Shown piece after piece: positions 38,402-50,045 of a DNA stretch of 64,000 bases. The stretch comes from Nocardia sp. NBC_00403 (lineage in GTDB: Bacteria > Actinomycetota > Actinomycetes > Mycobacteriales > Mycobacteriaceae): NCBI RefSeq assembly GCF_036046055.1, contig NZ_CP107939.1, forward strand, positions 8,661,102 through 8,725,101. The letters run 5' to 3'. Each line of letters starts with the position of its first letter. Positions within the stretch are counted from its first letter, which is position 1. A program made the translations under genes and the position numbers. The notes below the pieces were generated by a model, which was not told the origin of the DNA, ran no database searches, and worked only from the letters and a program-made list of their open reading frames with translations.

Positions 38402-39439
38402 ATGGGTGAGCCGCAGCCGATCCTCGAACCGCTCACACCGGCCGCGATCTTCCTCGTCGCCACCATCGACGAGGGCGGAGAGCAGACGGTGCGCGAGGTG
38501 CTCGCCGATCTGTCCGGATTGCGCCGTTCGGTCGGGTTCCGGTTGCCGGGATCTGGACTGACCTGTGTGACGTCGATCGGCTCGGCCGCGTGGGATCGGC
38601 TGTTCACCGGACCGCGGCCCGCCGAGTTGCACGACTTCCCCGGTTACGACGGCGCACACCACAAAGCCCCCGCCACACCGGGCGACCTGCTGTTCCACAT
38701 CAAAGCCGAAGTGCAGGACGCCTGCTTCGAGTTGGCGATGCTGCTCAGCGACCGACTCAACGGCGCGGTGACCATCGTCGACGAGACCGTCGGTTTCCGC
38801 TACTTCGAGCAGCGCGATCTGCTCGGCTTCGTGGACGGCACCGAGAATCCCGAAGGCGCCTCACCAACCTCGGACGCGGGACGGGTGGCACTGATCGGCG
38901 ACGAGGACCCCGACTTCGCGGGCGGCAGCTACGTGATCGTGCAGAAATATCTGCACGCCATGACGGACTGGCGCGAACTACCCGTCCCCGAGCAGGAACG
39001 GGTCATCGGCCGCACCAAGCTGGACGACATCGAGTTCTCCGACGCGGACAAGCCCCTGAATTCCCATGTCGCCGTGAACACCATCGTCGATCCCGATGGA
39101 ACCCAACGTCAGATCCTGCGCGCCAATATGCCGTTCGGCAGCATCCGCGACGACGAATTCGGCACGTACTACATCGCTTACGCCGCCACGCCCAGCGTCA
39201 CCGAGGCCATGCTCACGCGGATGTTCCTCGGCTCGGACGAGGCCGAATACGACCGAATTCTGGACTTCTCCACCGCGGTCACCGGCACGTTGTTCTTCAC
39301 ACCGCCCCAGGACTTCCTCGACGCTCCCCCGGACGCTCCCGAGGTCGAGGAATCTTCGAGCGCCGAGGGCGTTGACAAGTCGGACACCGGAGATGGATCA
39401 CTCGGTATCGGCACGTTGAAAAGGAGCACGCAGCAATGA
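38402..39439 (+). CDS. DyP-type heme peroxidase, encapsulin cargo
   Basis: A 345-aa dye-decolorizing peroxidase. The distal-heme motif GFVDGTENP carries D145, and the proximal ligand is H222 in NSHVAVNT. The C-terminus ends, after a flexible acidic segment, in DGSLGIGTLKRSTQQ, the classical peptide (SLGIGSLK type) that loads cargo into encapsulin shells. The stop overlaps the encapsulin ATG. Expected function is peroxide-dependent oxidation inside a protein nanocompartment, as for the mycobacterial Rv0799c/Rv0798c pair. Confidence 0.95.
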   Translation: MGEPQPILEPLTPAAIFLVATIDEGGEQTVREVLADLSGLRRSVGFRLPGSGLTCVTSIGSAAWDRLFTGPRPAELHDFPGYDGAHHKAPATPGDLLFHIKAEVQDACFELAMLLSDRLNGAVTIVDETVGFRYFEQRDLLGFVDGTENPEGASPTSDAGRVALIGDEDPDFAGGSYVIVQKYLHAMTDWRELPVPEQERVIGRTKLDDIEFSDADKPLNSHVAVNTIVDPDGTQRQILRANMPFGSIRDDEFGTYYIAYAATPSVTEAMLTRMFLGSDEAEYDRILDFSTAVTGTLFFTPPQDFLDAPPDAPEVEESSSAEGVDKSDTGDGSLGIGTLKRSTQQ

Positions 39440-40236
39440 ACAACCTCCATCGCGAACTTGCGCCGATCACCTCCGAGGCGTGGACGGCAATCGAGGAAGA
39501 GGCGACGCGAACCTTCAAGCGGCACATCGCCGGACGTCGCGTCGTCGATCTGTCCGGCCCGCACGGCACCGATTACTCCGCTGTCGGTCTCGGGCGCACC
39601 ACCGCGATCGCCGCGCCCGACGTGGGCGTGCAGGCCCGTCAGCGCGTTGTCGCGCCGCTGGTCGAACTGCGGGTCCCGTTCACACTGTCGCGCGATGAGC
39701 TCGACGATGTCGAGCGCGGCGCCAAGGACACGGATCTGGATCCGGTGAAGGAGGCCGCGCGACGCATCGCGTTCGCCGAGGACCGCGCGATCTTCGAGGG
39801 CTACCCGGCCGCGAATATCACCGGTATCCGGGCGAGTTCGTCCAACGAGGCGATCAACGTGCCGAGCGACCCGCGGCTGGTACCCGAGGCCGTCACCCAG
39901 GCGCTCAGCGCGCTGCGGCTGGCGGGCGTCGACGGCCCGTACTCGGTGCTGCTCAGTGCGGACCTGTACACGGCGGTCAGCGAGACGTCCGATCACGGCC
40001 ACCCGATCCGCACTCATATCGAACGCCTGATCCCCGACGGCGAGATCATCTGGGCCCCCGCCATCGACGGCGCGTTCGTGCTGACCACCCGAGGCGGCGA
40101 CTTCGACCTGCAACTCGGCCAAGACCTGTCGATCGGCTACCTGTCGCACGACGCCGAGTCGGTGCAGCTGTACTTCCAGCAGAGCCTGACCTTCCTGGTG
40201 TACACGGGCGAGGCCGCGGTCGCGTTGGAGGCCTGA
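39436..40236 (+). CDS. Encapsulin shell protein (family 1, linocin-M18 like)
   Basis: A 266-aa HK97-fold capsid protein that self-assembles into a nanocompartment holding the DyP peroxidase. Evidence is MNNLHRELAPITSEAWTAIE at the N-terminus, VVDLSGPHGTDYSAVGLGRT, the EDRAIFEGYPAANITGI block, and GQDLSIGYLSHDAESVQLYF near the end. It overlaps the peroxidase gene by 4 bp (ATGA), so shell and cargo are coupled. Loading is through the cargo's C-terminal peptide. Confidence 0.96.
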   Translation: MNNLHRELAPITSEAWTAIEEEATRTFKRHIAGRRVVDLSGPHGTDYSAVGLGRTTAIAAPDVGVQARQRVVAPLVELRVPFTLSRDELDDVERGAKDTDLDPVKEAARRIAFAEDRAIFEGYPAANITGIRASSSNEAINVPSDPRLVPEAVTQALSALRLAGVDGPYSVLLSADLYTAVSETSDHGHPIRTHIERLIPDGEIIWAPAIDGAFVLTTRGGDFDLQLGQDLSIGYLSHDAESVQLYFQQSLTFLVYTGEAAVALEA

Positions 40237-41050: not shown

Positions 41051-41083
41051 CGCGGGCGGCCCGTTTCCGATACGTTGGCAGCT

Positions 41084-42517
41084 GTGTCGATGATGAAGGG
41101 CGCCAATGTTCCGGTGCCGATGTCCGCGGTCCGCATCGAACTGGGGTGGCAGTCGGGACCCGCGGTTCCCGATGCGGATGCGTCCGCGCTGCTGCTCGTC
41201 TCGGGCAAAGTGCGGTCCGACAGTGACTTCGTCTTCTACAACCAGCCTGCGCATGCCTCCGGCGCGGTCCGGCACGAGGGCAAACAGCAGGGTCCGATCG
41301 TGCTGGACACGTTGTCGGTAAATCTGGCCCAGGTCGAGTCGCAGATCGACACCATCGTGATCGCGGCCTCCTCGGACGGCGGCACCTTCGGGCAGTTCCA
41401 CGGTCTCTATGTGCGGGTGATCGACGCGTCGAACGGCGGCGAGGTCGCCCGTTTCGACAGCGTCGGCGCGACCACCGAGACCGCGTTCGTACTCGGCGAG
41501 CTGTATCTCAGGCAGGGCACGTGGAAGTTCCGTGCCGTCGGACAGGGATACGCCTCGGGGCTGGCCGGTCTTGCCACCGACTTCGGCATCTCCGTCGATG
41601 ACGCACCGGCTCCCGCCGCATCGCCCGCGCCGCCCCAGCAGTTCACCCCACCACCGCCCGCGCCGCAGCAGTTCGCACCGCCGCCCGCGCCACCGCAGCA
41701 ATTCGCCCCGCCCGCACCACAGTTCGCACCACCGCCGCCGACCTACAGTGCGCCCACGCCACCACCGCCGTATCCGCCGCAGCCGCCTTACCCACCACAG
41801 GCTCCCTACAGCGCGCCGCCACCGCCCTACCCACCGCAGCAGCCTCCGGCAGCCGGGCCGTCGGGTGCGCCGATCAACATGAGCAAGATCTCGCTGACCA
41901 AAGAGTCGCCATCGATCTCGCTGACCAAGCAGGGCGCGATATCGGGCACTATGCGCGTCAACCTGAACTGGACGACCTCGGTCGCTCCGAGCGGTGGCGG
42001 GCTGTTCGGCAGGAAGCGCGGCGGGGGCACCCTCGACCTCGACCTCTGCTGCTTCTTCGAGCTGACCGACGGCCGCATCGGTTCCGTTCGCGCACTGGAT
42101 CGTTCGTTCGGCGCGCTGGACCGTCCGCCCTTCATCCGGCTCGACCAGGACGACAGGACCGGCAGCAGCAGCACCGGCGAGAATCTCGACATCAACCTCG
42201 ATTTCACCGCGCAGTTCCGCCGCATCCTGGTGTTCGCGTCCATCTATGAGGGCGCGACCGATTTCCGCGGTGTACAGGCCACCGCAACCCTGTACCCGGT
42301 CAACTCGGTGCCGATCGAGATGACCATGGATGGCTGCACGGACGACTCACGCGACGTGGTTCTCGCCCACATCGAGAATCTCAACGGCGAGTTCGTCGTT
42401 CGCCGCGACGGCACCTTCATCCGTCCGCCCGGCGGCCGTCCCGGCAGCGGCATCCGGGAGATCGCCCAGATGTACGGCTGGGGCTTCGAGTTCCAGGCTT
42501 CCAGCGGCAAGGGCTGA
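41084..42517 (+). CDS. Two-domain TerD-family protein with proline-rich linker
   Basis: A ~477-aa protein of the TerD/tellurium-stress family. The first TerD domain carries [20 protein letters not shown] and [13 protein letters not shown], the calcium-binding signature region. A linker of about 100 residues is nearly all Pro, Gln, Ala and Tyr. A second, divergent TerD-like domain follows ([40 protein letters not shown]). The start may be the GTG at 41084 or an ATG at 41090 or 41093. The family is linked to stress, membrane and DNA-damage responses, with no defined reaction. Confidence 0.85.
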
Positions 42518-42528
42518 CGAACCGAAGG

Positions 42529-43197
42529 TCAGGCGGCCTGCAATCGGTGCAGCAGCGTGCCCGCCACCGTACGCAACTCGTCGAGGTCGCCCGGCCAGCT
42601 GAGCATCCGCAGCACTGCGTCGGGGATCGCGCGTTCAGCGTAAGCCGGCGCGCTGCCTGCATCGGAGCGGATGCCGATCACCGTCTCGACGAGGCGGAAC
42701 GGGAGCCCCGCCAGCCCGGCGACGCTCGCGCCGACCGTCTCGGCGAGCACGCTTGCGGCCAATACCTCGTAGTGCCTGCGTAATTCGTCGCGCCGCAAAC
42801 GGAAGGCGGCGAAGCGTTCGGTACGCAGCTCGGGAAGCAGATACAGCGCACCCAGATTCCAGCGGGCCGCGCACAGCTGGCGGACATCGAACCAGGCCAG
42901 CGCGTAGAGTCGCGCGGCCACCGACTCCGGCACATCGCGCAGCCGTTCGGCGAGTTCCAAGGGGGCGGCGACAGTTTCGCCGAGCAGCGCGTCGAGGATG
43001 TCGTCCTTGGCGGCGAAGTGGTGGTAGAGCGAGGCCTGCCGGATTCCGACCGCATCGGCGACAACACGCGTCGAGGTGTTGGCGTACCCGTTGGTGGTGA
43101 ACAGCTCACCGGCGGCGTCGAGGATCTCGGCGCGCGGTGTCTGCCCGCGACGCGGTCGCTGTGCCAGTCGAGGACGGCCGGGGCCGAGGTTTGCCAC
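42529..43197 (-). CDS. TetR-family repressor of the permease/DUF1989/carboxyltransferase operon
   Basis: A 222-aa regulator with helix-turn-helix GELFTTNGYANTSTRVVADA and AVGIRQASLYHHFAAKDDIL. The GTG at 43197 (ANLGPGRPRLAQRP) is used. The gene diverges from the permease, and a perfect palindrome lies between them, so it probably represses both itself and the 43420-48651 operon. The effector may be the substrate brought in by the permease. No part of the ligand domain identifies it. Confidence 0.9.
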   Translation of the reverse strand: MANLGPGRPRLAQRPRRGQTPRAEILDAAGELFTTNGYANTSTRVVADAVGIRQASLYHHFAAKDDILDALLGETVAAPLELAERLRDVPESVAARLYALAWFDVRQLCAARWNLGALYLLPELRTERFAAFRLRRDELRRHYEVLAASVLAETVGASVAGLAGLPFRLVETVIGIRSDAGSAPAYAERAIPDAVLRMLSWPGDLDELRTVAGTLLHRLQAA

Positions 43198-43277
43198 CTG
43201 CCCATTCTGGCATCGCGTTTCGGGGCTTTCACCGGCGCATCAGCGGTCACACGGCCGGTCGTGGCCGAGCGGAGAGG

Positions 43278-43297
43278 TTTCTGTCACTTGACAGAAA
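43278..43297. promoter_or_regulatory. Palindromic operator for the divergent TetR
   Basis: TTTCTGTCACTTGACAGAAA is a perfect inverted repeat with 9-bp arms and a 2-bp centre. It includes a TTGACA hexamer that could be the -35 of the rightward promoter, so a bound repressor would block RNA polymerase there. Confidence 0.8.
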
Positions 43298-43419
43298 TCA
43301 AGGCAATCCAGAAGTTACCGGGGTTCCCGTAAGCGATACACACCGGACACCGAAAGCGCGATCGCGAACGCAAAACTGTCATCTGATAGGTATTGGCCAC
43401 TCGCCGAAGGACCCCACCC

Positions 43420-44979
43420 ATGGCCATTGAAGTCGATTCGCCCGCCCCCACCATCGCTGCCCTCGCAGCACTACCGGACACCAGCGCTGACGGCGTGGAC
43501 CTCGCCGGCTTCGGTTATCAGCCGGTGCTGCACCGCAAGCTCGGCCGCTACGCCTCGTTCGCGGCCGGATTTTCCTTTGTCTCGATCCTCACCACGATCT
43601 TCCAGTTCTTCGGCCTCGGCTACTCGTTCGGCGGCGCCGCGTTCTTCTGGACCTGGCCGATCGTGTTCGCGGGCCAACTGCTCGTCGCGCTCAACTTCGC
43701 CGAACTGGCCGCGCGGTACCCGATTTCGGGCTGCATCTACCAGTGGTCGCGCCGACTGGGCGGTGAAGTCGTCGGTTGGTTCGCGGGCTGGATGATGGTC
43801 ATCGCGCAGATCGTCACCGCCGCGGCGGCGGCCATCGCACTCCAGGTGGTGCTGCCCTCCATCTGGAGCGGATTCCAGGTTGTCGGCGCGGACAGCGCGC
43901 TCACCTCTTCGTCCGGGGCCGCGAACGCGGTCCTGCTCGGCAGCGTCCTGCTGGTGATCACGACAGTGGTCAATGTGATCGGCATCGACCTGATGGCCAA
44001 GATCAACTCGATCGGTGTCACCGTCGAGATCGCCGGTGTCGTCGCGATCGTCGCGCTGTTCTTCACCCACACCGAACGCGGTCCGGGCGTGGTGTTGCAG
44101 ACCGATCAGGCCGCACCCGGCCCGTACTGGGCCGCGTTCCTTGTCTCCGGCCTGATGGCCGCGTATGTGATGGTCGGATTCGATTCCGCCGGTGAGCTTT
44201 CCGAGGAGACCAAGAATCCGCGCACGGTAGCGCCGCGCACCATCCTCACTGCACTGTCGGTCTCCGCACTCGGCGGCGGCCTGCTGCTGATCGGCGCACT
44301 GATGGCCGCACCGAGCTTGTCCGACGGCGCGCTGGCCACCGACGGCCTGGCCTATGTGCTCACCTCGAAGCTCGACAGCCCGGCGGGCAAGGTGCTGCTC
44401 GGCTGTGTCGCAGTGGCGATCATGGTGTGCACCTTGGCAATTCAGACCGCGGGTTCGCGACTGATGTTCTCGATGGCGCGCGACGGCAAGCTGCCCTTCG
44501 CCGAGCGACTCGCCGCGGTGCATCCGCGCTACGGCACACCCATACTGCCCGCCATCGTGATCGGTGTGCTCGGCATCGGCCTGCTGGTGCTCAACCTCGG
44601 CAACGCCGCGATCTTCGCGACGCTGGCCAGCGTCTGCATTGTGACGCTGTATCTGGCCTACCTGCTTGTCACGGTGCCGCTGCTGGCCGCGCGCTTCAAG
44701 GGCTGGGGCCGCGACAACGCCGACGCCGGGCTGTTCAACCTCGGCCGCGCGGGCATTCCGATCAATCTGCTGGCCGTGGTGTGGGGCATCGCGATGGCGG
44801 TGAATCTGATCTGGCCCCGCGCGGAGGTGTACACACCGAAGGGCGGAAGCTGGTGGATGCTCTGGGCCGCACCGCTTTTCGTGCTGATAGTGGGGGCCGT
44901 CGGGATCGTCGTACATCGGTTCGTCAATGCCGGACCGCGCCGCGCCGACCTCACAGAACCCGCCGTAGTACCTGCCTGA
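43420..44979 (+). CDS. APC-superfamily permease of the urea-carboxylase-system type
   Basis: A 519-aa amino acid/polyamine/organocation transporter with about twelve hydrophobic segments, starting MAIEVDSPAPTIAALAALPD and then GRYASFAAGFSFVSILTTIF. The block LVSGLMAAYVMVGFDSAGEL followed by SEETKNPRTVAPRTIL is typical of APC proteins. Position ahead of two DUF1989 genes and a urea-carboxylase-like gene identifies it as the permease known from urea/guanidine carboxylase loci. The ligand is inferred to be a small nitrogen compound such as urea, guanidine or a guanidino derivative. Confidence 0.88.
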   Translation: MAIEVDSPAPTIAALAALPDTSADGVDLAGFGYQPVLHRKLGRYASFAAGFSFVSILTTIFQFFGLGYSFGGAAFFWTWPIVFAGQLLVALNFAELAARYPISGCIYQWSRRLGGEVVGWFAGWMMVIAQIVTAAAAAIALQVVLPSIWSGFQVVGADSALTSSSGAANAVLLGSVLLVITTVVNVIGIDLMAKINSIGVTVEIAGVVAIVALFFTHTERGPGVVLQTDQAAPGPYWAAFLVSGLMAAYVMVGFDSAGELSEETKNPRTVAPRTILTALSVSALGGGLLLIGALMAAPSLSDGALATDGLAYVLTSKLDSPAGKVLLGCVAVAIMVCTLAIQTAGSRLMFSMARDGKLPFAERLAAVHPRYGTPILPAIVIGVLGIGLLVLNLGNAAIFATLASVCIVTLYLAYLLVTVPLLAARFKGWGRDNADAGLFNLGRAGIPINLLAVVWGIAMAVNLIWPRAEVYTPKGGSWWMLWAAPLFVLIVGAVGIVVHRFVNAGPRRADLTEPAVVPA

Positions 44980-45068
44980 CCCCGGCGTGCGCGGTGGTGC
45001 GCCGCCATTGCCCGCCACCGCGCACGTCCGATCCGACACCTCGACACACCTGACCCGAGGGACCAATC

Positions 45069-45821
45069 ATGACAAGCACCGCTTCCACAACCGACGCCCG
45101 CGCGCACGCCCGATCGCAGGCCGCAGCGGCCGCCGTCGCCGCCCCTGTGCTGCCCGACGGCGTCGCCACCACGAAGATCACGTGGGCCCAACGCATTCCG
45201 GCAGGCGGCTACACGAACGTTGTGCTCGGCCGCGGCACCCGCATCCGGCTCGGCGATCCCGCGGGCGCCGCATGCGGGCACCTGCTGCTCGTGCGGGCCG
45301 ACGCGCCGTGGGAACGCCTCAATGTCGCCGACACCGTCAAGGTGCCGTGGCAGGCCTACCTCGCGGACGGCCATCCACTGCTCTCCGATCAGGGCCGGGT
45401 GCTCGCCACCGTGCTCGCCGACACCTCCGGCCACCACGACACCCTCTGTGGACCCACCTCGCAGGCCCGTGGCCTGCTCCGGCTCGCGGGAACCAAACAG
45501 GGCCTCGAACCACGGGACATCGCACCCACGGTGTCGTTCTTCCGCGGTGTCCGCGTCGAATCCGACGGCACGTTGATCGCCACCGGCAGCGCGGGTGCGG
45601 GCGCCTCGGTCGACCTGCTCGTGCACTTACCGGTAATCGCGCTGATCGCCAATGCCACGCACCCGCTGGACAACCGGCCCGCAACAGACCTCGATGTCAT
45701 CGCCTGGTCGGCGCCGGAGGAGCTCACCGCCACCCACAACTCCGACCCGGAATACCAACGGGCCGTGCAGAACACCGAACAAGCGTGGGCGGCCGCGCTG
45801 ACGTTGGAGGCATCGGCATGA
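45069..45821 (+). CDS. DUF1989 urea-carboxylase-associated protein 1 (carboxyguanidine-deiminase-like)
   Basis: A 250-aa protein of the DUF1989 family (TWAQRIPAGGYTNVVLGRGT, LGDPAGAACGHLLLVRADAP, LADTSGHHDTLCGPTSQA). The HHDTLCG motif, with Cys and His, is the conserved metal or active-site patch. Related pairs next to urea-carboxylase homologues have been shown in other bacteria to act as a carboxyguanidine deiminase in guanidine breakdown; that assignment here is by family and context. Its stop overlaps the next start (ATGA), so the two subunits are co-translated. Confidence 0.88.
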   Translation: MTSTASTTDARAHARSQAAAAAVAAPVLPDGVATTKITWAQRIPAGGYTNVVLGRGTRIRLGDPAGAACGHLLLVRADAPWERLNVADTVKVPWQAYLADGHPLLSDQGRVLATVLADTSGHHDTLCGPTSQARGLLRLAGTKQGLEPRDIAPTVSFFRGVRVESDGTLIATGSAGAGASVDLLVHLPVIALIANATHPLDNRPATDLDVIAWSAPEELTATHNSDPEYQRAVQNTEQAWAAALTLEASA

Positions 45822-46438
45822 ACTCGACACCGACGCGCACCATCGTGCTCGACCAGACCGTTCCCGCGTGCGCGCCGTGGTCCACGGTAGTCCGGGCAGG
45901 CGAACAGCTCGAGATCATCGACCTGCACGGCAATCAGGCCGTCGACTGCCTGCTGTACTCGGCCGCCGACCACACCGACCGCTACAGCGCGCAGGCCACC
46001 ATCACCGCCCAGCGCAATATCTTCCTCACCACCGGCAGCGTGCTGCGCACCGATGTGGGTACCGCCCTGATGACCGTGGTCGCCGACGAGGTCGGCAACC
46101 ACGACACTATCGCGGGCGCCTGCTCCCAGGAGTCCAACACCCTGCGCTACGGCCACCACACCCGCCAGCAGCACGCCTGCGTGGAGAACTTCCTGGCCGA
46201 GGCACTGAGATGGGGTCTCGGCAAGCGAGATCTGGTGTCCAACATCAACTGGTTCATGAACGTCCCGGTGGAGGCCGACGGCACCCTCGGCATCGTCGAC
46301 GGATTGTCCGCTCCCGGAAAGAAGGTCACCCTCCGCGCCGAGACCGACACGCTGGTGCTCGTCTCGAATTGCCCGCAGATCAACAACCCCTGCAACGGCT
46401 TCGACCCCACCCCCGTGCGCATGGTGGTGACCCGATGA
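45818..46438 (+). CDS. DUF1989 urea-carboxylase-associated protein 2 (carboxyguanidine-deiminase-like)
   Basis: A 206-aa paralogue and probable partner of the preceding protein. Shared blocks are LEIIDLHGNQAVDCLLYSAA, VGNHDTIAGACSQESNTLRY and FMNVPVEADGTLGIVDGLSA. The Cys in GACSQES and the NHD motif match the family pattern. The overlap at both ends (ATGA with its neighbours) fixes the start and places it in a tightly coupled operon with the carboxyltransferase gene. Confidence 0.88.
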   Translation: MNSTPTRTIVLDQTVPACAPWSTVVRAGEQLEIIDLHGNQAVDCLLYSAADHTDRYSAQATITAQRNIFLTTGSVLRTDVGTALMTVVADEVGNHDTIAGACSQESNTLRYGHHTRQQHACVENFLAEALRWGLGKRDLVSNINWFMNVPVEADGTLGIVDGLSAPGKKVTLRAETDTLVLVSNCPQINNPCNGFDPTPVRMVVTR

Positions 46439-48651
46439 CCGTCGCCGAACTACCGCGCAGCGGCGCAACGACCAGCAGCTCACCCGGAAAATCCGCCGAA
46501 ACCTCGACTCCGACAGCGGCCCGGTCGGGATACGGAGAATCCGACCGGGCCGACAGTCGGCCTCCCGCCGGTCCTTTCGGTCAGGCCGCCGCAGACCTTC
46601 TCGACAGCGGTGCAGCCGACTGTCCGGGCCGGAATGCTCGCCCCGCTGTTGCGGACCGCAGAGCTGTGGACTCGTCCGCCCTCGCGCAGGTCGAGGTAGT
46701 GCGCCCAGGGATGCTCACCACAGTGCAGGACTGGCCGGGCCGGGTCGGCTTTTGGCATGTCGGTGTACCGCCGTCGGGACCGATGGACGATCTTTCCTTC
46801 AGGCTCGGCAACCGGGTGCTGGGCAACGACGAGGGCGCGGCCGGACTCGAATGCACCCTCGGCGGGCCCGCACTGAAGTTTTCCGCACCGACCTGGGTGG
46901 TCGTGACCGGTGCACCCACCGATATCACGGTGAACGATGCGCGCGTGCACCAGTGGCGGACCGTGCAGGTTCCGGCCGGCGGCGTGCTGGATGTCGGGGC
47001 CGTTCGCGGGCCGGGCATGCGCTGCTACGTGCTGATCGCGGGCGGCATCGAGCTGCCCGAATACCTCGGCAGCGTCTCGACTTTCACGCTCGGCCGGTTC
47101 GGCGGCAGTGCAGGTAGTGCGCTGCGGGTGGGCGAAATACTGCCGCTTGCACCGCATATCGGCCGAGTTGCGGCGGCGGTGCCGATGGAGGAGCAGCCGG
47201 TGCTGAGCCGACAATGGGAGCTGGCGGTCACCGAGGGTCCACACGGTGCACCGGAGTTCTTCACCCGCGCCGACTTCGACACCGTCATCGGCACCGATTA
47301 CGCAGTGCACTTCAACTCCGATCGCACCGGAGTCCGGCTCATCGGCCCCAAGCCGGAGTGGGCACGGACCGACGGCGGCGAGGCGGGCCTGCATCCGTCG
47401 AATATTCATGACACGCCGTATTCCGTTGGTGCACTCGACTTCACCGGTGACACCCCCATCCTGCTCGGACCGGATGGGCCTAGTCTCGGCGGTTTCGTCT
47501 GCCCGGTCACCGTGGTCGCCGCCGACCGGTGGAAGCTCGGCCAGCTCGCCCCTGGCGACGCCGTGCGCTTCGTTCCGATTCGCAGTGCGCACGCCGCCTC
47601 GATCCGTGAACTGGGTCCGGCGCGTCGGGCCGCATGGCCGACAGTCATTTCGACCGGCGGCGACGATGACGACGGCGTGCTGCGCCGGACCGACGTCGAC
47701 GACCAGACCGGCGTGACCTACCGACGCCAAGGCAATGACGGTGTGCTCGTCGAATACGGCGCCATGACACTGGATTTGGGTCTGCGTGCCCGTGTCCACG
47801 CACTGCACCGGCACCTGCTTGCCGCCGGTGTGCGCGGCGTGACCGAGCTGACCCCCGGTGTCCGGTCCCTCCAGGTCCGCGTCGACCCTGCCATCCTGCC
47901 GGTGCCCGCATTGCTCGACCTGCTCGCCGAAGCCGAACGCACCATCCCGGCCTCCGACCAGCTCATCGTGCCGAGCCGCACGGTCCACCTCCCCCTCTCC
48001 TGGGACGATCCGTCGACCCGAGAGGCCATCACCCGCTACCAGCACGGCGTCCGCGCCGATGCCCCCTGGTGCCCGTGGAACATCGAATTCATCCGCCGTA
48101 TGAACGGATTGGCGGCGGTACAGGACGTCTACGACACCGTGTTCGGCGCCGAGTACCTGGTCCTCGGCCTCGGTGACGTCTATCTCGGCGCGCCGGTAGC
48201 CACCCCCACCGATCCGCGCCACCGGTTGGTCACCACCAAATACAATCCGGCCCGCACCTGGACCCCCGAGAACGCGGTCGGCATCGGCGGCGCCTACCTG
48301 TGCATCTACGGCATGGAGGGCCCCGGCGGCTATCAGTTCGTCGGCCGCACCACCCAGGTGTGGAACCACCGCAACGCCGGCACCGACCCCGCAGACAACC
48401 CGTGGCTGCTTCGCTATTTCGACCGAATCCGCTGGTATCCCGTCGAAGCCGAGGAACTCCTCGATCTGCGTGCCGATTTCGCGGCGGGCAACGTCGGGGT
48501 GAAAGCCGAAGACGGTGACTTCCGACTGGCCGACTACCGGCAGTTCCTCGCCGACAACGCCGGATCCATCGAGGAATTCCGGGCAATGCAAGCCGAGGCA
48601 TTCGCCGCGGAGCGGAACTCCTGGCAGCGCGCGGGCGAACTCACCGGGTGA
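46435..48651 (+). CDS. Stand-alone carboxyltransferase half of a urea/guanidine carboxylase (no BC, no BCCP domain)
   Basis: A 738-aa protein. After about 80 low-complexity residues it runs TTVQDWPGRVGFWHVGVPPS, GPMDDLSFRLGNRVLGNDEG, then the AHS2 and AHS1 halves through IEFIRRMNGLAAVQDVYDTV, NPARTWTPENAVGIGGAYLC and FGAEYLVLGLGDVYLGAP, matching the CT region of urea carboxylase. Intact urea carboxylases are about 1,200 aa with an N-terminal ATP-grasp biotin carboxylase and a C-terminal biotinyl domain with an A/E-M-K-M site. Neither is present, and the protein stops right after AERNSWQRAGELTG. No allophanate hydrolase follows. See findings. Confidence 0.85.
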   Translation: MTVAELPRSGATTSSSPGKSAETSTPTAARSGYGESDRADSRPPAGPFGQAAADLLDSGAADCPGRNARPAVADRRAVDSSALAQVEVVRPGMLTTVQDWPGRVGFWHVGVPPSGPMDDLSFRLGNRVLGNDEGAAGLECTLGGPALKFSAPTWVVVTGAPTDITVNDARVHQWRTVQVPAGGVLDVGAVRGPGMRCYVLIAGGIELPEYLGSVSTFTLGRFGGSAGSALRVGEILPLAPHIGRVAAAVPMEEQPVLSRQWELAVTEGPHGAPEFFTRADFDTVIGTDYAVHFNSDRTGVRLIGPKPEWARTDGGEAGLHPSNIHDTPYSVGALDFTGDTPILLGPDGPSLGGFVCPVTVVAADRWKLGQLAPGDAVRFVPIRSAHAASIRELGPARRAAWPTVISTGGDDDDGVLRRTDVDDQTGVTYRRQGNDGVLVEYGAMTLDLGLRARVHALHRHLLAAGVRGVTELTPGVRSLQVRVDPAILPVPALLDLLAEAERTIPASDQLIVPSRTVHLPLSWDDPSTREAITRYQHGVRADAPWCPWNIEFIRRMNGLAAVQDVYDTVFGAEYLVLGLGDVYLGAPVATPTDPRHRLVTTKYNPARTWTPENAVGIGGAYLCIYGMEGPGGYQFVGRTTQVWNHRNAGTDPADNPWLLRYFDRIRWYPVEAEELLDLRADFAAGNVGVKAEDGDFRLADYRQFLADNAGSIEEFRAMQAEAFAAERNSWQRAGELTG

Positions 48652-48667
48652 GGCGTCGACGTTCAGG

Positions 48668-48820
48668 TCACCAGCCGAACAATTTCGCCATGTCGATCGA
48701 CTCGTCGTCCCAGCGGTTTTCGATGATCACGCGGTCGGATTCCGGCATGGTCGGTGACCAGCCGCAGCGCCCCCAGAAATCTTCACGCTGTTCCTGGGTC
48801 AGCCAACGCTGCTCGCTCAT
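48668..48820 (-). CDS. 50-aa small protein of unknown function
   Basis: MSEQRWLTQEQREDFWGRCG continues to a C-terminus of ESIDMAKLFGW. It is Trp-rich and acidic, with no domain recognised. The ATG at 48820 follows a good AGGAG site 8 nt upstream, which makes expression likely. It lies leftward between the carboxyltransferase operon (convergent) and the WYL regulator (divergent). Confidence 0.65.
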   Translation of the reverse strand: MSEQRWLTQEQREDFWGRCGWSPTMPESDRVIIENRWDDESIDMAKLFGW

Positions 48821-48967
48821 GACGGTCACTCCTGTACATCCGATCGTGGCCTTGCCGCGGCGACGATATGCCGACGCGAGCACCACAGGCTTCGGTTTTA
48901 GCACAAGTCGTGGAAGAACGCGCGGGTGTCGACCACCAACAGTTCCGGCTCCGCTCTGACCCACTTA

Positions 48968-48989
48968 GGACACTTTTCGCCCTATGTCC
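48968..48989. promoter_or_regulatory. Inverted repeat in the WYL regulator promoter
   Basis: GGACA (48968-48972) and TGTCC (48985-48989) form an inverted repeat with a 12-bp A/T-richer centre, 19 bp before the WYL gene start. The arrangement fits an autoregulatory site of a YafY-type protein. Confidence 0.5.
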
Positions 48990-49007
48990 GGGGCAGACTT
49001 TGTAGTC

Positions 49008-49976
49008 ATGTTGGAAACCTCCGCCCGCCTGCTGCGTCTGCTGTCGCTGTTGCAGACGCCTCGCGACTGGACCGGCGCCGAACTGGCCGAACGCCTCGAG
49101 GTCGATGCACGCACCGTCCGCCGCGATATCGACAAGCTACGCAACCTCGGCTATCCCGTCGACGCCACGCCGGGCGTGGCGGGCTACCGCCTCGGCGCGG
49201 GCGCGAAACTCCCGCCCCTGCTGCTCGATGACGACGAGGCCGTCGCGGTCGCCATCGGCCTGCGCACCGCGGCGGGCGGCACCATCGCGGGTATCGAGGA
49301 CAGCTCGCTGCGCGCACTCACCAAGCTCGAGCAGGTGCTCCCCTCGCGGCTGCGCCACCGCGTCAGTCTGCTGCACTCGACCACCATCACCGTCCCCGCA
49401 GCGGCGGCGACCGTCGATCCCGATGTCCTCACCGCGCTCGCCGCCACCATCCGCGACAACCACCGCCTGCGCTTCGACTACCGGAGCCATCGCGGCACAA
49501 CATCACTGCGCACCACCGAACCCCACCGTCTCGCCCACACCGGCCGCCACTGGTATCTGATCGCCTGGGACCTCGACCGCGCCGACTGGCGCACCTACCG
49601 CGTCGACCGCATCAACCCTCGCATCCCCACCGGCCCGCTCTTCACCCCGCGCGAGGCCCCCGATATCGACCTCGCGGGCTATGTTTCCCGCGGCGTCACC
49701 ACCTCCCCCTACCGCTACTCCGCCCGCATCACGCTGGACGTCCCCGCCGAGGTGGCCGCCGACCGCATCGCCCCCACCGTCGGCACCATCGAACCCCTCG
49801 ACCACCAATCCTGCCTACTCCGAACAGGTTCCAACTCCCTGGACGAACTGGCCATCTATGTAGCCGGCTTCGGCTTCCCGTTCCACATCCACGAACCCCC
49901 CGAACTGATCGCCCACATCCGCACCCTCATCGCACGACTCACCGCCGCCGTCGACGACGAGCCGAGTGGCACATGA
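49008..49976 (+). CDS. YafY-type transcriptional regulator (HTH-WYL)
   Basis: A 322-aa protein with an N-terminal HTH-11 domain (LETSARLLRLLSLLQTPRDW, then LEVDARTVRRDIDKLRNLGY) and a WYL domain (FDYRSHRGTTSLRTTEPHRL, GRHWYLIAWDLDRADWRTYR with the W-Y-L triad), plus a WCX-like C-terminal extension. The frame is open from 48984, but ATG 49008 gives the standard start. It converges with the DJ-1/PfpI gene; such pairs recur in actinobacteria. Confidence 0.9.
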   Translation: MLETSARLLRLLSLLQTPRDWTGAELAERLEVDARTVRRDIDKLRNLGYPVDATPGVAGYRLGAGAKLPPLLLDDDEAVAVAIGLRTAAGGTIAGIEDSSLRALTKLEQVLPSRLRHRVSLLHSTTITVPAAAATVDPDVLTALAATIRDNHRLRFDYRSHRGTTSLRTTEPHRLAHTGRHWYLIAWDLDRADWRTYRVDRINPRIPTGPLFTPREAPDIDLAGYVSRGVTTSPYRYSARITLDVPAEVAADRIAPTVGTIEPLDHQSCLLRTGSNSLDELAIYVAGFGFPFHIHEPPELIAHIRTLIARLTAAVDDEPSGT

Positions 49977-50045
49977 GCGAGAGAACTTCTCGACCTGCGC
50001 CGCACCTATGTGCCACTCGACCACAGGAACTGCGTACGGGGCGGC

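Follow-up and report, generated by a model that had tools for sequence, protein, structure and literature searches.

Domain content of a carboxyltransferase gene in Nocardia

Positions 46435 to 48651 of the window, a 64,000-nucleotide stretch of the Nocardia sp. NBC_00403 chromosome, encode a 738-residue relative of urea and guanidine carboxylases on the forward strand, and the translated open reading frame (ORF) contains no internal stop. The first-pass annotation, made from the letters of the window, had described the product as the carboxyltransferase (CT) region of such an enzyme alone. Pfam agreed, detecting solely CT_A_B (residues 109 to 381, 294.7 bits) and CT_C_D (428 to 647, 128.4 bits), as did the urea carboxylase model TIGR02712 (1201 positions), whose match was confined to profile positions 447 to 1111 and, at 955.5 bits, lay under the cut-off of 1303.85, leaving the protein outside the curated family. 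No ATP-grasp biotin carboxylase (BC) domain was matched in the protein by Pfam or NCBIfam models, the TIGR02712 match beginning at position 447. The C-terminal biotinyl (biotin carboxyl carrier protein, BCCP) domain, which the annotation had likewise reported missing, was absent from the protein, the same match stopping at position 1111 of 1201. Residues 85 to 720 aligned with the K. lactis urea carboxylase structure 3va7 (559 bits), and the CT half shared 56% identity with a full-length urea carboxylase paralog of the same genome. A structural model predicted with 26 related sequences was of poor quality (mean predicted local distance difference test score, pLDDT, 55.9); it was set aside and supports nothing here. 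The features of the gene are as follows.

46435..48651, + strand: CT-only carboxyltransferase of predicted guanidine type, 738 residues (translation, Pfam, TIGR02712, structure alignment)
46435..46686, + strand: N-terminal low-complexity tail of 84 residues, lineage specific (length varies across loci)
47437..47439, + strand: codon of Asp335, equivalent to K. lactis position 1330, the guanidine signature (alignment)
48175..48177, + strand: codon of Asp581, equivalent to K. lactis Asp1584 (alignment)
48238..48240, + strand: codon of Lys602, equivalent to K. lactis Lys1605, the likely general base (alignment)

Two DUF1989 genes and a permease gene precede the CT gene, as first described, and all three were assigned with curated models; a regulator gene is divergent from them.

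42529..43197, - strand: AmtR-type TetR regulator, divergent from the operon (Pfam TetR_N; best solved relative AmtR, 5e57, E 8.5e-64)
43420..44979, + strand: APC-superfamily permease of the urea/guanidine carboxylase system (TIGR03428, 833.4 bits, cut-off 740.45)
45069..45821, + strand: UAAP1 (DUF1989), carboxyguanidine deiminase subunit by family (TIGR03425, 218.7 bits, cut-off 205.95)
45818..46438, + strand: UAAP2 (DUF1989), carboxyguanidine deiminase subunit by family (TIGR03424, 334.6 bits, cut-off 284.7)

The permease frame opens at TTG 43393, with ATG 43420 its likely start. ATGA overlaps join UAAP1 to UAAP2 and UAAP2 to the CT gene, and the overlap of ATG 46435 with the UAAP2 stop supports the start assigned to the latter. 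The families TIGR03425 and TIGR03424 are those that we take to comprise the subunits of carboxyguanidine deiminase. For the identity of that enzyme, the PF09347 definition was used as given in the relevant passage of PMC11410670.

Conservation, signature residues, and pathway context

A genus-wide search recovered a close CT-only relative (at least 72% identity) in at least 130 of 148 genomes of the genus, the window's own included, and in two further genomes the CT gene was interrupted or ended by a contig edge. CT-only genes occurred in Nocardia, Rhodococcus, Prescottella, Rhodococcoides, Mycolicibacterium/Mycobacterium, Skermania, and Antrihabitans. The best 120 of 7997 scored homologs were 644 to 784 residues long, with two CT domains and nothing more. 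Among 158 frames with a CT match, 129 ended no more than 720 residues past the domain start. L154, which is among the 129, was full-length with a BC N terminus, leaving 128 CT-only frames, several of them copies from one genome. Hence, the layout of the window's protein is kept across Nocardia and its relatives. Ratios of nonsynonymous to synonymous substitution (dN/dS, NG86) among relatives were 0.04 to 0.16, and the CT-only protein is, on these alignments, not damaged but conserved and under purifying selection. In draft genome G096, a CT-only gene (L200) behind UAAP1 and UAAP2 was split over reading frames, either through sequencing error or as a decaying copy.

We compared 91 related loci by tblastn, a few from the same genome, 69 of which extended at least 8 kb to either side; shorter ones were often ended by contig edges. 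With the BC and BCCP domains of the window genome's own urea carboxylase as tblastn queries (E 1e-8, at which a very divergent BCCP could escape), neither BC nor BCCP was matched in any of the 91 loci. At this threshold, the missing domains therefore do not lie in an adjacent gene, a layout that the annotation had considered. Neighboring genes were UAAP1 (90 loci), UAAP2 (90), TetR (85), permease (74), and allophanate hydrolase (35). In 76 of the 87 loci that could be measured, the window among them, the CT start codon overlapped the UAAP2 stop (one of 88 was unmeasurable). Counted from this overlapping start, the N-terminal tails of the 76 loci had a median length of 18.5 residues (range 0 to 123), against 84 in the window. 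Among the 19 loci from Rhodococcus, Prescottella, Rhodococcoides, and Mycolicibacterium/Mycobacterium (L117, L121, L123-L139), 16 had tails of 2 to 4 residues, two had tails of 11, and one was without an overlapping start. At loci without overlap, a looser start rule gave tails of up to 153 residues. The annotation had about 80 low-complexity residues replacing the BC domain; the tail is there, but because its length varies this widely and shrinks to 2 to 4 residues in most Rhodococcus and Mycolicibacterium loci, it is, judged from these lengths, a variable extension, longest in Nocardia, and no stand-in for BC.

According to passages in PMC11410670 and PMC12186494, Asp at K. lactis position 1330 marks guanidine carboxylases and Asn urea carboxylases, while Asp1584 is conserved; a passage in PMC5770610 names Lys1605 the likely general base of the CT reaction. 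In an alignment of 89 CT-only rows, a few of them copies from one genome, with 25 full-length enzymes, Asp1330, Asp1584, and Lys1605 were each present in 89 of 89 CT-only rows. Position 1330 was Asp in 16 and Asn in 9 of the full-length enzymes. The full-length enzymes had 276 near-invariant columns; at 228 of these, at least 95% of the CT-only rows had the same residue. A maximum-likelihood (ML) tree of 59 rows, rooted at the midpoint, placed 34 CT-only rows in one group (support 100/99), showing a single origin of this main clade, adjoining full-length Asp-type enzymes of two other families; Asn-type enzymes, to which the window genome's full-length paralog belongs, grouped separately. Guanidine is thus well supported by sequence as the substrate class of the CT-only family and would be the substrate of the window's protein.

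The first-pass annotation had described an operon without allophanate hydrolase. This holds for the window locus, yet the same chromosome encodes the hydrolase elsewhere (C1:1578134-1579759), beside the full-length urea carboxylase (C1:1579874-1583557), which has a GntR regulator before it and the hydrolase after it. Moreover, in 35 of the 91 loci a hydrolase match lay on the CT strand, its start ranging from 25 bases ahead of the CT match end to 333 bases past it. The only UAAP2 match in the window's genome at E 1e-60 or better was the window copy. We cross-tabulated the 148 genomes of the genus among the matches listed, in which weaker or partial copies may escape, counting genes as beside each other when they started less than 7 kb apart on one contig; two genomes with partial urea carboxylase hits were kept apart. 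The hydrolase scored over its cut-off in 68 of the 71 genomes whose CT-only gene was not accompanied by a urea carboxylase over cut-off (beside the CT gene in 43, elsewhere in 25), in 57 of 58 with both, in 8 of 8 with the full-length enzyme alone, and in 0 of 9 with neither. Two of the three exceptions in the first class (G006, G114) had below-cut-off hydrolase matches, as did one genome with neither enzyme (G085, E 5.9e-149), and genomes with a hydrolase totaled 135 in the cross-table and 136 in the search tally. Fisher's test gave p ~1e-9 for the hydrolase association, on counts that ignore kinship among related genomes and are not independent events. UAAP2 was found in 132 of 148 genomes, namely, the 130 with a CT-only gene and two with a broken or contig-cut CT gene. 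On this pattern of presence, the CT-only gene is tied to UAAP2 and allophanate hydrolase, which fits a predicted route from guanidine through carboxyguanidine and allophanate to ammonia. At three Mycolicibacterium/Mycobacterium loci that lack a neighboring allophanate hydrolase (L125, L131, L134), a gene of ~480 to 510 residues was present downstream of CT; it begins like what we presume to be a CYTH/CHAD-type protein.

A search across the class, with a threshold of E 1e-100, gave matches in 33 of 296 genomes, 23 of them outside the window's own family. Twenty of the 23 had full-length frames of at least 1211 residues, and another (G183) had a BC domain with its end lost to a contig edge. The remaining two, L203 (genome G231) and L204 (genome G315), were CT genes without BC, so CT-only genes are not limited to one family. 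In both, a DUF1989 pair is followed by the CT gene with no BC between. L203 retains the catalytic Asp and Lys and stands in the order permease, DUF1989 pair, CT, and allophanate hydrolase, the CT end meeting the hydrolase start with no room for a BCCP; the L204 C terminus is lost at a contig end. Neither G231 nor G315 had a closer BC match than 50 to 51% over most of the domain, and a partial match (56% over 150 residues) lay in a 1066-residue frame of G231. Both rows formed long branches, and one clade with the other CT-only rows was not rejected (p-AU 0.29, approximately unbiased test). The loss of BC and BCCP may thus have had one or two origins.

Supply of carboxybiotin and rival explanations

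Using a guanidine carboxylase BC domain as the query, we searched 24 CT-only genomes for a relocated BC. Among the matches listed, 19 genomes had none above 47 to 51%, their best matches lying in frames of 473 to 1224 residues (mostly 660 to 770) that we read as acyl-CoA-carboxylase alpha type. In Rhodococcus globerulus (L138), whose CT gene has allophanate hydrolase next to it, the closest BC in the genome reached only 49%. In the other five, a BC match of 63 to 67% always lay inside frames of 1218 to 1481 residues, the length of a full carboxylase. No relocated guanidine-type BC was thus found in the genomes searched, suggesting that the domain was lost rather than moved. The window genome has eight BC genes and fifteen biotin/lipoyl matches, one of which is a stand-alone 71-residue BCCP with an LESMKME motif (L187, C1:8020901-8021113). 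Relatives of L187 in the genus formed two identity groups, 80 to 93% (four genomes) and 61 to 69% (others). A stand-alone AccC-like gene (L053) and a stand-alone AccB-like gene (L181) lie ~8 kb apart in the same genome (~C1:7898130-7907380); with AccD- and KAS-like neighbors by eye, they were read as a separate acyl carboxylase in a fatty-acid/polyketide-looking locus and set aside as partner.

We consider it fairly probable that the window's protein is the CT subunit of a split guanidine carboxylase that still needs biotin and receives its carboxybiotin in trans from a BC-BCCP subunit shared with other enzymes. The permease would import guanidine under AmtR/nitrogen control, and a BC-BCCP protein encoded elsewhere would make carboxybiotin from ATP and bicarbonate. 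The CT-only protein would move the carboxyl group onto guanidine, UAAP1 and UAAP2 would deiminate carboxyguanidine to allophanate, and allophanate hydrolase, next door or elsewhere, would release ammonia. The donor would most likely be a shared acyl-CoA-carboxylase alpha subunit, or in some strains perhaps the BC-BCCP part of urea carboxylase or an orphan small BCCP. Supply in trans had already been suggested in the annotation and is a sound option, with a precedent in AccA3, one BC-BCCP alpha subunit that serves several carboxyltransferases in mycobacteria (passages in PMC11001197 and PMC4064979); the donor would have to be named by inference.

Several observations weigh against this reading. 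Every genome searched has several BC genes, so that co-occurrence cannot single out a donor and pins none down, and L187 is no specific partner: it occurs in 28 of the 31 genomes checked, and the 9 that lack the pathway all have it. Known shared alpha subunits serve AccD-type carboxyltransferases of another fold. Of the columns conserved in full-length enzymes, 48 of 276 have drifted in CT-only rows, and position 1330 is Met in both L203 and L204. Within the window's own family, the class-wide sample showed a patchy distribution of the CT-only gene, with 9 of 25 genomes carrying it and one more having the urea type alone. Finally, no guanidine riboswitch was matched up to E 1 in window positions 42000 to 50000, where the sole match was a microRNA family (E 0.11, 24.9 bits vs a gathering score of 69); such riboswitches are common, not universal, upstream of guanidine carboxylases.

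The simplest suggestion from the absent domains, also raised in the annotation, is that the fused CT_A_B-CT_C_D protein activates guanidine directly with ATP in the manner of PxpB/PxpC, UAAP1 and UAAP2 acting on the product. BC and BCCP are missing from all 91 loci and no relocated BC was found, and PxpB and PxpC are homologs that are assumed, in the part of PMC13274462 that treats them, to phosphorylate 5-oxoproline. However, the CT-only protein keeps Lys1605 and Asp1584 where the PxpB-type structures 2phc_B, 5dud_B, and 2zp2_A have Arg and Phe, and it scored far under cut-off with the PxpC (NF045499, 124.3 bits, cut-off 500) and PxpB (TIGR00370, 29.8 bits, cut-off 145.55) models. The tree, too, joins it with full-length enzymes that depend on biotin, and genomes that carry it also tend to carry allophanate hydrolase, an enzyme that calls for a carboxylated product. 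Direct activation is thereby weakened to an unlikely explanation, one that keeps a share of the probability. The broader version, in which domain loss made the fused CT biotin-independent, whether by ATP activation or with a carboxyl source other than carboxybiotin, and its product passed to the DUF1989 pair, strikes us as doubtful.

Returning to a split enzyme supplied in trans, the BC-BCCP of the full-length urea carboxylase could serve both carboxyltransferases, as that enzyme is present in the window's genome and in 58 of 130 CT-only genomes among the matches listed. It is an improbable general donor, since on the same count 71 CT-only genomes had no over-cut-off copy and one more a partial one, although partial copies in draft genomes may escape. 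With two of three catalytic modules gone, the protein could also have ceased to catalyze and serve the DUF1989 proteins as a binding or regulatory partner, yet invariant active-site residues in 89 of 89 rows and purifying selection on the protein make this very improbable. As for truncation of a full-length gene through frameshift, assembly error, or pseudogenization, protein length alone would suggest it. Relatives are likewise CT-only at the locus, with 128 frames of the same architecture (some from one genome), CT-only rows form one tree group, and the UAAP2 stop is overlapped by the CT start in 76 of 87 measurable loci; truncation can be practically dismissed.

Known systems and neighboring genes

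The CT-only protein most resembles guanidine carboxylases (TIGR02712 family, Asp1330) in its CT half, signature Asp, catalytic Lys and Asp, UAAP1/UAAP2, and frequent allophanate hydrolase, but unlike them it lacks BC and BCCP domains and falls under the curated cut-off. Urea carboxylase, the Asn-type paralog here, has a homologous CT half yet differs by its BC and BCCP domains, by Asn in place of Asp, and by GntR and allophanate hydrolase neighbors in place of UAAP genes. PxpB/PxpC (KipI/KipA) share the same two domains and the absence of BC and BCCP from the protein, but are separate chains, and the three PxpB-type structures aligned carry other residues in place of the catalytic Lys and Asp. 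Their partner, in the part of PMC13274462 that describes it, is PxpA, whereas the CT-only protein has DUF1989 neighbors; general family scans found no PxpA (LamB/YcsF) among seven window proteins, no search directed at PxpA having been made. Actinobacterial acyl-CoA carboxylases with AccA3 suggest by analogy how several separate carboxyltransferases could be served by a single BC-BCCP protein, with the difference that AccD-type carboxyltransferases have an unrelated fold.

A CT-only version of guanidine carboxylase is real and conserved, and calling its chemistry new is not yet justified. The annotation had expected chemistry unlike the known pathways; the signature Asp, catalytic Lys and Asp, UAAP1/UAAP2, and the hydrolase tie point instead to the known guanidine route. 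Among the papers listed from the open literature, we found no report of a BC-less guanidine or urea carboxylase, subscription papers being mostly beyond the search and prior mention possible. In this lineage, strong selection maintains a guanidine-type carboxyltransferase from which the carboxybiotin-making domains are gone, and the labels "urea carboxylase" and "5-oxoprolinase/urea amidolyase family protein" on these proteins hide an incomplete enzyme. If supply in trans is true, guanidine use would draw on the biotin machinery of lipid synthesis, coupling nitrogen scavenging to fatty-acid carboxylases; if the biotin-free alternative is true, the CT fold would be able to work without biotin.

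With an AmtR-type regulator gene beside its permease gene, the operon is a predicted member of the AmtR regulon. It has the same gene set and regulator as the AmtR urea carboxylase operon of PMC4222082, described in its operon section as a conserved nitrogen operon in M. smegmatis (msmeg_2184-2189) and N. farcinica (nfa22230-22180). That section grades the functions of the operon "highly speculative" and is silent on absent domains, and the word guanidine occurs 0 times in the paper. On sequence grounds, the AmtR operon gains a likely substrate, guanidine.

Three further genes were seen near the operon. An encapsulin (Linocin_M18, 334.8 bits), the shell of a protein nanocompartment, is encoded at 39436-40236 (+), and a TerD-domain protein (171 bits) with a long Pro/Gln/Ala-rich middle at 41075-42517 (+). 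Directly past the CT gene, the opposite strand holds a possible 50-residue protein beginning MSEQRWLTQEQ at 48668-48820 (-).

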